Source: Bacteroidales bacterium (lineage in GTDB: Bacteria; Bacteroidota; Bacteroidia; Bacteroidales; UBA932). Taken from it: a stretch of 62,436 nucleotides of DNA. The position numbers were made by a program, and so were the translations under genes. Of the stretch, positions 36,011 to 40,444 are shown piece by piece. The notes beneath the pieces were generated by a model that searched no databases, was not told where the DNA came from, and saw only the letters and a list, made by a program, of their open reading frames with translations. How positions within the stretch are numbered: position 1 is the first letter of the stretch; every line of letters starts with the position of its first letter. The stretch lies in contig JAFYYM010000100.1 in NCBI GenBank assembly GCA_017557535.1, forward strand, positions 1 through 62,436. The letters are read 5' to 3'.

Positions 36011-37363
36011 ATGAGCCTTTATTCATATTACAGGATATCTAAACCGGCGTCTGTAAAAGTGCCGCCGGAGGAGGCGCCAGGAGAGTACCGCCGCCTGCGA
36101 AACCGTACATTCTGGGGAGTGACAGCGGCGTATGCCCTCTATTATGTCTGCCGGATGGCGATGGCGGTAGTGAAACAGCCTCTCATAGACGGAGATATCC
36201 TCAACGCCGCTCAACTTGGAATCATAGGTTCAGCCTTCTACTTTGTATATGCCGCCGGCAAGTTCGCCAATGGTTTTATAGCCGACTATTGCAACATCCG
36301 ACGTTTCATGGCGACGGGGCTTCTCATCTCTACAGTCGTGAACCTGATCATGGGTGTTCTAGGCCTCGCTCATGGTTCATGGGGCTTCTCGTCGGCGATC
36401 TTGTTTTTCGTGTTCGCTGTTGTCTGGGGAGTTAATGGCTATTGCCAGTCTATGGGTGCGCCTCCTGGTGTGATCAGTCTCTCCAGGTGGTTCCCGCTCA
36501 ACCGCAGGGGAACATTTTACAGCATCCTGAGCGCGACCCCATACCTTGGCAAATCCATCTCTGTTTATGCCCTTGGATTGGTTGTGGCGGTCATCGGGTG
36601 GGAATATGGGTTCATTTTCTCCGCGATAGCTGGAGTCATCGGTTCCGCTATCATTTTGGTTTTCGTTTCTGACACTCCTGAAAGCAAAGGGCTTCCATCT
36701 GTCCAGGAACTTTCCGGTGAAGAGGTTCTAAAGACCGACACACTGCCTACAAAAGAGATTCAGAAGATGGTGGTGAGGCATCCGGGAATATGGATAATAG
36801 CCCTTTCCAGCGCCTTCGTCTACATCACCCAACATGCGGTCAGTGAGTGGGGCGTTCTTTTTCTGCAAAAGGGGAAGGATTATTCACTGGTCTCAGCCAC
36901 AGAGATTATCGCTTTCTCGGAAGCTTTCGGGATAGCCGGCACAGTCTTGGCTGGTTGGCTATCTGACCGGGTCTTCAGAGGCAACCGCCTTATACCAGTG
37001 CTTTTGTCTGGAATTATCTGCTTCCTCTCGCTTGGGGGATTCCTGCTGACCAAGGGAAGCTATGCCATGAATATCGTATATGTGTCAGCTTTCAGTCTGT
37101 CCATTGGCGTCGTTTATTGCACCGTCGCCGGACTTATGGCTCTGGACATTGTCCCGCGTAAGGCGACAGGATCGGCTCTCGGAATGGTGGGCTTGGCGAG
37201 CTACGGAGCTGCCGGTATTCAAAATGTCGTGAGTGGTTTCATGATCGGAGCGGGGGATTTCAATTTCCTGCCCGTCTCCGTGTTCTGGATGGCGGCCTGC
37301 TTGCTGTCTTTCATGATCCCGGTGTTGTCGTGGCGTCTACTTAAAATACAATCAATCAGATAG
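36011..37363 (+). CDS. Organophosphate:phosphate antiporter (GlpT/UhpC-like MFS)
   Basis: 450 aa, 12 predicted membrane helices. The N-terminal RISKPASVKVPPEEAPGEYRRLRNRTFWG and YALYYVCRMAMAVVKQPLI, the loop FANGFIADYCNIRRFMATG, and GYCQSMGAPPGVISLSRWF match the OPA family that exchanges glycerol-3-phosphate or hexose phosphates for phosphate. The exact substrate, and a possible sensor role like UhpC, cannot be told. It is divergent from the polyprenyl synthase gene and followed two bases later by a DUF486 gene. Confidence 0.88.
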   Translation: MSLYSYYRISKPASVKVPPEEAPGEYRRLRNRTFWGVTAAYALYYVCRMAMAVVKQPLIDGDILNAAQLGIIGSAFYFVYAAGKFANGFIADYCNIRRFMATGLLISTVVNLIMGVLGLAHGSWGFSSAILFFVFAVVWGVNGYCQSMGAPPGVISLSRWFPLNRRGTFYSILSATPYLGKSISVYALGLVVAVIGWEYGFIFSAIAGVIGSAIILVFVSDTPESKGLPSVQELSGEEVLKTDTLPTKEIQKMVVRHPGIWIIALSSAFVYITQHAVSEWGVLFLQKGKDYSLVSATEIIAFSEAFGIAGTVLAGWLSDRVFRGNRLIPVLLSGIICFLSLGGFLLTKGSYAMNIVYVSAFSLSIGVVYCTVAGLMALDIVPRKATGSALGMVGLASYGAAGIQNVVSGFMIGAGDFNFLPVSVFWMAACLLSFMIPVLSWRLLKIQSIR

Positions 37364-37788: not shown

Positions 37789-38337
37789 ATGGGACTTTTC
37801 AAAGACCTCTTAAAAGGCGTTGCCGGAGACCTGGTATCGAAGGTCCAGCAGGCCGCTAATGCCGCCATGTCCGGTGCGGTGAACACCTCCAGCTCATCCC
37901 AGCCCCATTCGGGCGGAAGAGGCAATTTCGTGGATTATGATGATGACGCTCCCGTCAGGAGCGATGCTGAGAGCCTGACCTATTTTGCCGGGATTCTCGC
38001 TACCCGTTTCCCTCAGTACACTGTCCAGCGTAACGTCCCCGTCACTGACCTGGCCGGAAACGCCTCGGATTCGTTCCAGCTCTATAAGACACGTCCCACA
38101 CAGGCTTACAAGGCGGAGTGGGGCCAGCCTTACACCTTCGTTCTTTCCGAAGGCGGAGCTCCGAAGGGAATTGTCATGCTTGGCTCCGGCCATAGCCATG
38201 ATGCCAAAGTGAAGTATTTGATTTCCAGGATGTACGCCAAGAAACTTGGCCTTCCTTACATCAACTTCTACAATCAGATGCCCAACAAAGAGGACTACGT
38301 TGTCGGGCGTATCAACAAATTCATGGCAAATATCTGA
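37789..38337 (+). CDS. Protein of unknown function
   Basis: 182 aa, no signal peptide. It starts with an amphipathic helix (GLFKDLLKGVAGDLVSKVQQ), a Ser/Gly-rich linker, then a compact C-terminal domain of about 125 residues with FPQYTVQRNVPVTDL, EWGQPYTFVLSEGG, MLGSGHSHDAKVKYLISRMYAKKLGLPYINF. The last part resembles restriction-endonuclease-like alternation of strands and helices, but no catalytic motif can be assigned. It precedes the structured non-coding segment and the reverse transcriptase, separated from the RT start by 147 bases. Confidence 0.65.
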   Translation: MGLFKDLLKGVAGDLVSKVQQAANAAMSGAVNTSSSSQPHSGGRGNFVDYDDDAPVRSDAESLTYFAGILATRFPQYTVQRNVPVTDLAGNASDSFQLYKTRPTQAYKAEWGQPYTFVLSEGGAPKGIVMLGSGHSHDAKVKYLISRMYAKKLGLPYINFYNQMPNKEDYVVGRINKFMANI

Positions 38338-38342
38338 TCCAG

Positions 38343-38474
38343 GAAAAAGGGGATGCGGCTTGAGCCGCGCCCGTGAAGGATCCAGCTTCGCCCATTTATG
38401 GCATTACGGGCTGCCGGGCGTTGTACGGTCTCGTGATCGGCAATTTTGCCGATTCAAAATCATTCCCCTTTTTC
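38343..38474 (+). ncRNA. Predicted structured RNA upstream of the reverse transcriptase
   Basis: The segment is closed by complementary ends: GAAAAAGGGG (38343-38352) pairs with CCCCTTTTTC (38465-38474), extended by ATG/CAT across one bulged base. Inside, in order: hairpin GCGGC-TTGA-GCCGC; a GCCCGT/ACGGGC stem enclosing smaller hairpins (GAAG/CTTC and CCAT/ATGG); and ATCGGCA-ATTT-TGCCGAT, a perfect 7-bp hairpin just before the closing stem. The layout (terminal inverted repeats around several stem-loops directly before an RT) resembles the RNA templates of retrons and of defence-associated RTs. A T-rich run follows, so an attenuator role is an alternative. Confidence 0.5.
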
Positions 38475-38484
38475 TTTTTTCCGG

Positions 38485-39684
38485 ATGGAAAGTATAATGA
38501 GGCAGATCATGCGTCAGGAAGTCTGGGATGACTTCCTGGCGCATCGTTTGCGAAAGGGCCGCTTCACGTGGCATTCTTTCGAGGAGGCGGATGACTTCGT
38601 GGACTCGGAGTCTTATTTGCCTGTTGTCTCACGTCTATCGCGGGGAGAGGGACTTGGAATCCCTTTCAAAACCACAATCAACAAGATGGGCTCTGGGAAA
38701 AAGAGGGTGGTCTACCATTTCAGGGATCCTGAGATGGCTGTCCTCAAACTCATTTCCCATCTACTTTACAGGTACGATGGCCTCTTCGCTCCAAACTGCT
38801 ATGCGTTTCGCCGGGGCAAGAGGGCCTCAGATGCGGTATTCCGTCTTAAAAAAGAGATTGGAGGGAAAAGTATGTGGGCATATAAGGTGGACATACACAA
38901 CTACTTCAACTCTATTTCCATATCGGGTCTAATGCCTATTCTTTCCAGGATTCTTGGAGATGATCCGGAGTTGTATTCCTTCTTTGAGACCCTTTTGTCG
39001 GATGACCGGGCATTGTCCGGGGACGATGTGATAAGGGAGGAAAGGGGAGTGATGGCTGGAACCCCTACAGCCCCGTTCCTCGCCAACGTATATCTGATGG
39101 ATGTTGATCATCATTTCACGAGAGAGGGTGTAATATATGCGAGATACTCGGATGATATTATTATTCTCGCTGAGGATCAGGAAGAGTTGTCCAGGAGAAA
39201 GAATGAGTTACTGGACTTTTTCCGGGAATATCATTTGGAAGTCAATCCCTCGAAGGAACATGTTTACGCTCCAGGAGAGCCTATAGAGTTCTTGGGTTTC
39301 AGCGTGGAAGGGAACAATATAGATGTCTCTACAGCTACCAGGCAAAAGATGAAAGGAAAAATCCGCCGGAAAGCGCTTTCTCTTCATCGCTGGGTGTCCA
39401 AGACAGGGAAGAATCCCGTTTTCGCTATGAAAGCCCTCGTCAATTGTTTCAACAGGAAGTTCTTTGAGGAAGGAGACCCCGATTCCCTGTCTTGGTCCAG
39501 GTGGTTCTTCCCGGTTATCAATCGTACTGAGGGATTGGCGGAAATAGATCATTATCTGCAAGATAACATCCGCTTTCTGTCCACGGGACGCCATAACAAG
39601 AGCAACTATCGAGTACGGTACGAGGATTTGAAAGCCTTGGGCTACCGAAGTCTTGTCCACGAGTACCATAAATGGATGAAATAA
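38485..39684 (+). CDS. Free-standing reverse transcriptase (YSDD), class undetermined
   Basis: 399 aa RNA-directed DNA polymerase. RT blocks: GIPFKTTINKMGSGKKRVVYHF (motif 1-2), catalytic Asp136 in YKVDIHNYFNSI, GVMAGTPTAPFLANVYL (motif B, residues 188-204), catalytic YSDD at 221-224 in IYARYSDDIIILAE, and EFLGFSV (motif D/E, 268-274), followed by a basic thumb-like stretch. There is no maturase/HNH domain and no group II intron domain V nearby. The retron VTG motif and the DGR SQ motif are absent. It is therefore a group-II-like or unknown-group/defence-type RT. ATGs at 38497 and 38509 are alternative starts. Its stop overlaps the HAD gene by one base. Confidence 0.9.
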   Translation: MESIMRQIMRQEVWDDFLAHRLRKGRFTWHSFEEADDFVDSESYLPVVSRLSRGEGLGIPFKTTINKMGSGKKRVVYHFRDPEMAVLKLISHLLYRYDGLFAPNCYAFRRGKRASDAVFRLKKEIGGKSMWAYKVDIHNYFNSISISGLMPILSRILGDDPELYSFFETLLSDDRALSGDDVIREERGVMAGTPTAPFLANVYLMDVDHHFTREGVIYARYSDDIIILAEDQEELSRRKNELLDFFREYHLEVNPSKEHVYAPGEPIEFLGFSVEGNNIDVSTATRQKMKGKIRRKALSLHRWVSKTGKNPVFAMKALVNCFNRKFFEEGDPDSLSWSRWFFPVINRTEGLAEIDHYLQDNIRFLSTGRHNKSNYRVRYEDLKALGYRSLVHEYHKWMK

Positions 39685-40343
39685 TGGGACTTGTGATTTT
39701 GGATTTTGACGGCACCCTCGGGGACACAAGGGCTAACATCGTCCTCACTATGCGCCAGACTCTGGAGAGGAAAGGATACCCGGTGGCTTCTGAGGAAGAG
39801 ATTGCCTCAACTATCGGTCTCCCTCTCGAGGAAGGGTTCCGCCAGCTCGTTCCCGGAATCACTGAGCATGAGGTGATCTCCTGCGCCCTGACTTACAGGG
39901 ATATTTTCGAGGCAAACCGGAAGTTGTTGGTTCCTAAGCTTTTCCCCGGTGTGGCGGAGACTCTCGCAGCTCTTGTTAGTGAGGGATATGTCCTAACTGT
40001 CGCTTCGTCCAGGTCTTCACGTTCCTTGAAAGGTTTCCTGGCTGATATGGATATTGACGGATACATTTCCTATGTGCTTGGGGCGGATAATGTTTTTAAG
40101 GCCAAACCCGATCCGGAACCTGTGCTGAAGACTCTGTCTGATCTCGGATTCGCCCCGGAAGAGACCATCGTTGTCGGGGATATGCCAGTCGATATCATCA
40201 TGGGAAAAGGTGCGGGGACGAAAACCTGTGGCGTGACTTACGGTAATTCCTGTCTGGAGGATCTGGCCGCCGCCGGAGCGGATATGATTATCGATAGCTT
40301 CCCTGAGTTGCCAGGCGTGTTGCTCAAAATGTGCTCTAGATGA
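39684..40343 (+). CDS. HAD-superfamily phosphatase, phosphoglycolate phosphatase-like
   Basis: 219 aa. HAD motif I is LVILDFDGTLGDT (nucleophile and acid Asp), motif II Ser in LTVASSRSS, motif III Lys in FKAKPDPEPV, motif IV in IVVGDMPVDI. The cap domain between motifs I and II is helical (C1 type). The family includes Gph phosphoglycolate phosphatase, pyrophosphatase PpaX and nucleotidases; the substrate here is unknown. The ATG at 39684 shares its first base with the stop of the RT gene, indicating translational coupling; an alternative ATG at 39672 gives four extra residues. Confidence 0.85.
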   Translation: MGLVILDFDGTLGDTRANIVLTMRQTLERKGYPVASEEEIASTIGLPLEEGFRQLVPGITEHEVISCALTYRDIFEANRKLLVPKLFPGVAETLAALVSEGYVLTVASSRSSRSLKGFLADMDIDGYISYVLGADNVFKAKPDPEPVLKTLSDLGFAPEETIVVGDMPVDIIMGKGAGTKTCGVTYGNSCLEDLAAAGADMIIDSFPELPGVLLKMCSR

Positions 40344-40432
40344 AACGAAGCTATCCTGACCAATCAGGTTGCCTTTTGGCCATAGCTGGCGCTTATATCA
40401 TTTTCGGGCTATTATCTTCCGCGAGGAAATAG
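40340..40432 (+). CDS. Candidate 30-residue single-span membrane peptide
   Basis: An ATG overlaps the HAD gene's stop codon as ATGA and opens a 30-codon frame: basic start (MKRSYPDQSG), hydrophobic helix (CLLAIAGAYIIFGLLSS) and basic end (ARK). The start-stop overlap and the topology are typical of real small membrane proteins, but no homology is known to me. It ends 12 bases before the stop of the convergent CoA-transferase gene. Without it, the 101-base gap would hold only a weak hairpin (GGCTATT/AATAGCC at about 40407-40434). Confidence 0.35.
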   Translation: MKRSYPDQSGCLLAIAGAYIIFGLLSSARK

Positions 40433-40444
40433 CCAGTGCCCTAA

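Follow-up and report, generated by a model that had tools for sequence, protein, structure and literature searches.

The stretch of DNA analyzed here, hereafter the window (62,436 nucleotides of a Bacteroidales genome), carries a partner gene, a structured non-coding RNA (ncRNA) and a reverse transcriptase (RT) of class UG26, all in one row and on one strand (Table 1). With a probability of roughly 60%, we read them as a three-part cassette that constitutes an uncharacterized ncRNA-dependent defense RT; judging from its kin, the system probably makes DNA and serves gut bacteria against viruses. This reading is favored by the match of the RT to UG26, with UG27, UG17, and Drt9 as its nearest other classes, by the presence of the RNA next to close relatives and to most of the distant ones, by the covariation of its helices and by the constancy of the partner gene. 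The partner homolog found at another locus (L199), a related extension on the helicase SngC, the patchy presence of the RT and the precedents of DRT9 and DRT10 point in the same direction.

Table 1. Positions in the window of the elements of the putative cassette and of selected parts of its RNA.
Feature	Position	Strand	Evidence or pairing
Partner protein, 182 aa: amphipathic stretch at the N-terminus, then a flexible linker and a C-terminal domain (about residues 58–180)	37789–38337	+	Predicted model
UG26-associated ncRNA, full length: P1, P2, pseudoknot, P3a/b/c, P4, UCAAA loop	38343–38474	+	Rfam RT-5 core, model R1, covariation
P1, 5′ strand	38343–38353	+	Pairs with 38464–38474
Pseudoknot, 5′ strand GCCCGU	38369–38374	+	Pairs with ACGGGC at 38406–38411 in P3c loop
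Candidate template: P4–P1 loop UCAAAAUCAU	38454–38463	+	Invariance of UCAAA
UG26 reverse transcriptase, 399 aa (ATG to stop)	38485–39684	+	PADLOC RT_UG26, 517 bits

The UG26 Reverse Transcriptase

An earlier note, made from the letters of this DNA, had described the RT with its motifs YSDD, GTPTAPFLANVYL, and FLGF and had remarked that it lacks VTG, a motif of retron RTs; both observations were confirmed. Among the PADLOC models, RT_UG26 is by far the best match (517.4 bits, 5e-156, model positions 2–396 of 398), followed by a generic RT model (115 bits), UG27 (102), UG17, the class of DRT10 (100), and Drt9 (97). On the strength of this match, the RT belongs to class UG26. The same model came out best for every RT whose PADLOC class was checked, i.e., those of the window and of loci L010, L185, L188, and L199–L203.

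Sequence sets were thinned at 85% identity, and the RT alignment (A3) holds the window and 75 of the 80 RTs left after thinning from 98 usable ones, five without a reached end being omitted. The two aspartates of YSDD are kept in 76/76 sequences. In 73 of them, residue 393 or 394 (numbered on the translated frame) is a tyrosine, which is a candidate priming residue; L084, L127, and L131 lack it.

A Covarying RNA Upstream of the RT

The earlier note had also proposed that the RT is preceded by a 132-base segment with pairing ends, and such an RNA, bounded by the complementary stretches GAAAAAGGGG and CCCCUUUUUC, indeed stops 10 bases before the start codon. Its fold consists, in order, of a closing helix (P1), a hairpin (P2), a three-part P3 and a hairpin (P4), to which is added a pseudoknot of 6 bp joining the strand after P2 to the P3c loop; the “at least three” stem-loops seen previously are thus real but undercounted. 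The core of the RNA (38365–38466) matches the Rfam family RT-5 (RF03026) with 77.3 bits, for a gathering threshold of 45.7, and by this match is a member of that family. As the RT is a PADLOC class and the RNA core an Rfam family, neither part is undescribed, and the earlier suggestion of an undescribed system fails on this point. The RT-5 match begins within P2 and stops at the foot of P1, so that the closing helix and P2 lie outside the Rfam model, and the pseudoknot is missing from the RT-5 structure line printed by cmscan. The full extent of 132 nucleotides, the closing helix, the extra hairpin, and the 6-bp pseudoknot, supported by covariation, are therefore new relative to the RT-5 model.

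Covariation was scored on 43 RNAs (alignment A5) out of the 88 rows of alignment A4, which excludes L115 as well as three near-duplicates (L033, L052, and L135), and on 21 diverse, hand-picked RNAs (alignment A6). Over the 43 sequences, 94.7% of the cells of the whole structure are paired and 34/49 pairs are changed on both sides; the covariation score is 0.366, a value that neither slid controls (0.103 at the highest) nor any of 500 shuffles attained. Because the structure was drawn on these very sequences and on the Rfam line, the comparison with slid versions is somewhat biased toward it. Over the 21 sequences, the corresponding values are 87.9% of the cells and 40/46 pairs, with a score of 0.532 vs. 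at most 0.178 when partners were slid. The covariation that the earlier note had suggested looking for upstream of homologs is thus present. The closing helix that it had predicted is borne out as well, P1 being paired in 97.6% of the cells of the 43 distinct relatives with changes on both sides in 5 of 11 pairs. P4 pairs less consistently in the set of 21 (73.7%). The pseudoknot is 100% paired in both alignments, with changes on both sides in three of its six pairs among the 43 sequences and in all six among the 21, and occurs in variants such as GCCUGC/GCAGGC, GCCCGU/ACGGGC, and GCUUUC/GAAAGC. A covariance model built from the 43 RNAs with the pseudoknot omitted (R1) scores the window RNA, which belongs to its training set, at 132.4 bits over 38343–38474.

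The RNA accompanies UG26 genes closely. Among 125 loci whose RT start showed an identity of 35% or more, 101 upstream regions were distinct, and the RNA was found at all of these: 91 by alignment, nine more by R1 and the last as a piece cut by a contig end. Eight RNAs passed over at the alignment step were later recovered by R1. Homologs devoid of upstream structure, which the earlier note had envisaged, were hence not seen among the 101 loci. Among five distant UG26 genes of other families (30–38% identical to the RT of L185), four are accompanied by the RNA (E-values 7e-14 to 8e-9), and the fifth, G960, gave no RNA match. A conserved ncRNA beside the RT, as found at these loci, is a feature of the ncRNA-using (Class 2) defense-associated RTs (DRTs), and the DRT-like unit put forward earlier is thereby supported, with an RT of class UG26 and an RNA that is conserved and covarying. 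The distance between RNA and RT is not fixed: it reaches about 180 nt in L010 and L115, and at L120 (1228–6191) the partner gene and the RNA are still together, the RT lying 3 kb off behind two genes. By eye, these two intervening genes resemble TrkA and TrkH. A search with the Rfam RT-5 model across 395 genomes of the phylum, under stricter filters, gave a match in this genome only.

A Candidate Template Loop

The loop between P4 and P1 contains UCAAA in 88/88 rows of A4 and 21/21 rows of A6; this stretch remains constant while the surrounding helices vary. This conservation makes the UCAAA loop, adjacent to the closing helix, the strongest candidate for a template. It is placed between the last stem-loop and the closing helix, apparently where DRT9 and DRT10 have their template loops. 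When the A-B-A′ repeat pattern of the DRT10 template loop was looked for, 29 of the 44 distinct loops contained a repeat of at least three bases, in excess over shuffled loops (p 0.009) yet not over permuted columns (p 0.82), so that templating by the loop is a property that we infer.

The Partner Protein

The conserved neighbor of the RNA and RT is the gene for a protein of 182 amino acids located upstream, found in 79 of 80 named loci, and not the HAD phosphatase gene located downstream; the earlier note had overlooked it. The alignment of its products (A2) comprises the window protein and 69 of 87 usable partners. The window protein matches no Pfam family, no SLATT model is among the Pfam matches of the 70 proteins, and none of them (0/70) has a transmembrane-like stretch. 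By eye, a second partner copy in the same genome (L189) has a hydrophobic start.

In the predicted model, the C-terminal domain resembles a PD-(D/E)XK fold, other folds being conceivable, as the VIA-align list for this model contains many unrelated proteins among its lower-Z rows. The sequences of the core strands are YTFVLSE and a GIVMLG run, and T or S stands in 67/70 proteins where a D is expected (residues placed by eye); the partner would thus apparently lack the usual PD-(D/E)XK catalytic residues. The main clade also conserves a loop reading GHSHD.

A partner homolog also lies beside the RT of another family at L199 (hhalign 97.4%). On the other hand, no partner was found upstream of four distant UG26 genes, nor was a partner match obtained in G011 and G797; the upstream gene of G011 encodes a kinase with an FGE-sulfatase domain and is devoid of the partner domain. 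At L188 (5115–8348), a Ser/Thr kinase with an FGE-sulfatase domain stands in the place of the partner, ahead of the UG26 RNA and RT.

A Link to Shango

At L185, the genes upstream of the RNA and RT match SngC (1e-227), SngB (7e-164), and SngA (9e-21, over the last third of the model only), which we take to be the genes of Shango. The upstream genes of L185–L187 are alike in size and ends, the helicase gene directly preceding the RNA and RT, and this helicase is SngC by model in G049 and G602. The SngC proteins of this clade are 854–874 aa long and have a C-terminal extension that matches the partner (hhalign 92.1%, E 6e-7), whereas the SngC of G499, from the same genus, has 743 aa, lacks the extension and compares to the partner with an E-value of 0.38. 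G499 has no UG26 match in a genome that is 71% complete. Since SngC was found in just 3 of 200 genomes, the contrast amounts to two proteins vs. one. As judged from profile comparison, a partner-related domain thus ends the SngC of Shango in three genomes forming one small clade. The genome of the window yielded no SngC at 1e-120 and does not present the sngABC set of Shango.

Distribution and Surroundings

Of 400 genomes from the genus, 45 carry the RT (E up to 1e-40), a patchy presence. A scan of GTDB contigs retrieved 554 relatives at E up to 1e-3, not necessarily all UG26, and the best 80 of these all bear Bacteroidota names, many from ruminant guts. In a tree restricted to rows of UG26 and group II, a clade of 14 partner-linked RTs (100/99) is recovered, from which L199, partner-linked too, stands apart with weaker support (94/81); the four partner-less RTs (100/99) and the three SngC-linked ones (100/100) make up one clade each. 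A second, divergent cassette of partner, RNA and RT, the latter cut by the contig end, is present in the genome of the window (L146, G000:C96, 14755–15514).

A single-protein scan of viral contigs gave no UG26, and an alignment scan gave 16 loci with 28% identity at best; viral contigs therefore held no close UG26 at that sensitivity. One study reports UG26 from viruses of cold seeps (PMC10504277). Among the matches listed for phage and plasmid records, all are distant RTs with less than 60% identity. Models of related classes were also searched: UG17 matched in 19 of 149 genomes, and Drt9 and UG27 in none of 198 genomes each, a blank result that does not imply absence.

By eye, the neighbors of the cassette in the window resemble housekeeping genes and not a defense island. 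ARAGORN places a tRNA-Leu (caa) at 37186–37279, inside an MFS transporter gene; it was not called by Rfam and is probably false. The open reading frame of 30 aa named in the earlier note (40341–40433) follows the HAD gene.

Alternative Explanations

Several observations weigh against the reading as a defense cassette, namely the housekeeping-like neighbors, the p of 0.82 for loop repeats against permuted columns, the three RTs of 76 devoid of the candidate tyrosine, the partner-less cases (the four distant genes, G011, and G797) and the RNA-less G960; moreover, the link to Shango concerns one clade of three genomes, in which the SngA match covers the last third of the model. The RNA could instead act in cis on the RT message, as a leader or attenuator to which the RT or another factor binds to set RT expression, or in which P1 and the U-run that follows it terminate transcription. 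Although its location so close to the RT start codon and this U-run would suit such a role, the RNA of L120 resides with the partner gene far from the RT, the gap is wide at L010 and L115, and the pseudoknot and the invariant UCAAA go beyond what a terminator needs, and we consider a leader unlikely. A terminator scan did not report P1 either, but it says little on this helix because it is limited to loops of 3–8. It is similarly improbable, in our opinion, that the RNA acts as a scaffold only for an RT making untemplated, protein-primed DNA in the manner of AbiK-type enzymes. Such a role would accord with the conjectural nature of loop templating and with the divided outcome of the repeat comparison; however, the nearest UG classes (UG27, UG17, and Drt9) include RNA-templated systems, and UCAAA stays unchanged while the helices around it change.

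Three proposals of the earlier note did not survive. A retron, in which an msr/msd-like RNA with a1/a2 ends would yield branched cDNA, was suggested by the succession of a complementary-ended RNA and an RT, but the St85 retron model reaches 57 bits for a cut-off of 235, far below the UG26 score, and VTG is absent; the retron was rejected as very improbable. That the RT comes from a group II intron, in domesticated or degenerate form, may be suggested by a TIGR04416 match of 110 bits and by group II RTs of about 25% identity among the best rows listed by tblastn in plasmids. Yet the cut-off of TIGR04416 is 300, UG26 and group II rows split at 100/100 in the tree and the window contains no group II intron RNA, whereas the 12 RT loci fetched from the UG17 search (12/12) carry one, and we dismissed this origin as scarcely tenable. 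Remote shared ancestry of UG26 and group II RTs is possible. Finally, the HAD phosphatase was proposed as the effector, and its start does overlap the RT stop by one base as described, but it occurs in only 4 of 80 loci, two of these at a distance from the RT, despite at least 750 nt being available after the RT in 74/80; it was rejected and has almost no chance of being the effector.

Proposed Mechanism and Relation to Known Systems

Under the preferred reading as an ncRNA-dependent defense cassette, the RNA would be transcribed together with the operon or cut out of it, and would bind the RT. The RT may then make single-stranded DNA by copying the P4–P1 loop (UCAAA and a few variable bases) over and over, in the way that DRT9 and DRT10 copy theirs. 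Priming would probably rely on a residue of the RT itself, the tyrosine near the C-terminus being the candidate. The partner may then bind the complex or its DNA and relay a signal, the outcome of which would be antiphage defense; in the L185–L187 clade, the signal might be handed over straight to the helicase SngC.

According to the corresponding reports, DRT9 copies a U-rich loop into poly-dA and is protein-primed by RT tyrosines (PMC12483538), and DRT10, made of an RT, a small partner gene and a 137-nt ncRNA built around a large central stem, copies a loop located after a stem-loop into repeats through realignment (PMC12632851). As far as these descriptions go, the window shares with DRT10 an RT, an ncRNA of similar size, a small partner and a candidate loop placed like the DRT10 template, which follows a stable stem-loop. 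It differs from DRT10 by its RT (517 bits for UG26, 100 for the UG17 model), by a partner that is not SLATT and has neither Pfam match nor transmembrane stretch, by the invariance of UCAAA, whereas DRT10 loops vary (the DRT10 RNA being compared by description), and by the position of the RNA, between partner and RT here and before the SLATT gene in DRT10. Like DRT9 (UG28), it combines an RT with an upstream ncRNA holding an invariant stretch, which in DRT9 is reported to be the template; unlike DRT9, the UG26 loop has no universal poly-U, the partner is different and the RT falls short of the 488 positions of the Drt9 model by about 90 aa. With Shango, the common ground is the RNA and RT of L185–L187 behind an SngC-type helicase with a partner-related extension, SngC being absent from the genome of the window.

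More tentatively, and with rather more doubt than confidence, UG26 could be a telomerase-like repeat writer, with a partner domain that reads its DNA or the complex, this same domain being grafted on the Shango helicase. The UUCAAA loop and its variable bases would be copied with realignment on the foot of P1 (UC or UUC). The resulting repeats of single-stranded DNA would measure about 6–10 nt, have a TTTGA core and be held covalently by the RT. Telomerase RNAs too present stem-loops or pseudoknots beside the template, as mentioned in the report on DRT10 (PMC12632851). If this were true, RT-made DNA would be an alarm signal transferable between otherwise separate defense systems.

A 2026 overview tabulates DRT1–9, and its accessible part does not mention UG26 (PMC13213688). 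The literature searched, which comprised neither the source of RT-5 nor the UG/Abi survey, holds no description of a mechanism, partner or RNA for UG26, nor of the three-part cassette and its link to Shango. The parts are known, as RT-5 and UG26, and it is their assembly that is new, as a three-part and probably antiviral RT system that has a covarying RNA and an unexpected connection to Shango. An orphan RNA family and an orphan RT class would thereby be joined in a single system, whose parts and limits are defined and open to synthesis and testing. The full RNA structure, including its pseudoknot, is provided, as well as a type of partner other than SLATT for an RNA-using defense RT, and the extension of SngC is a pointer to how the products of RTs may signal to effectors in DRTs.
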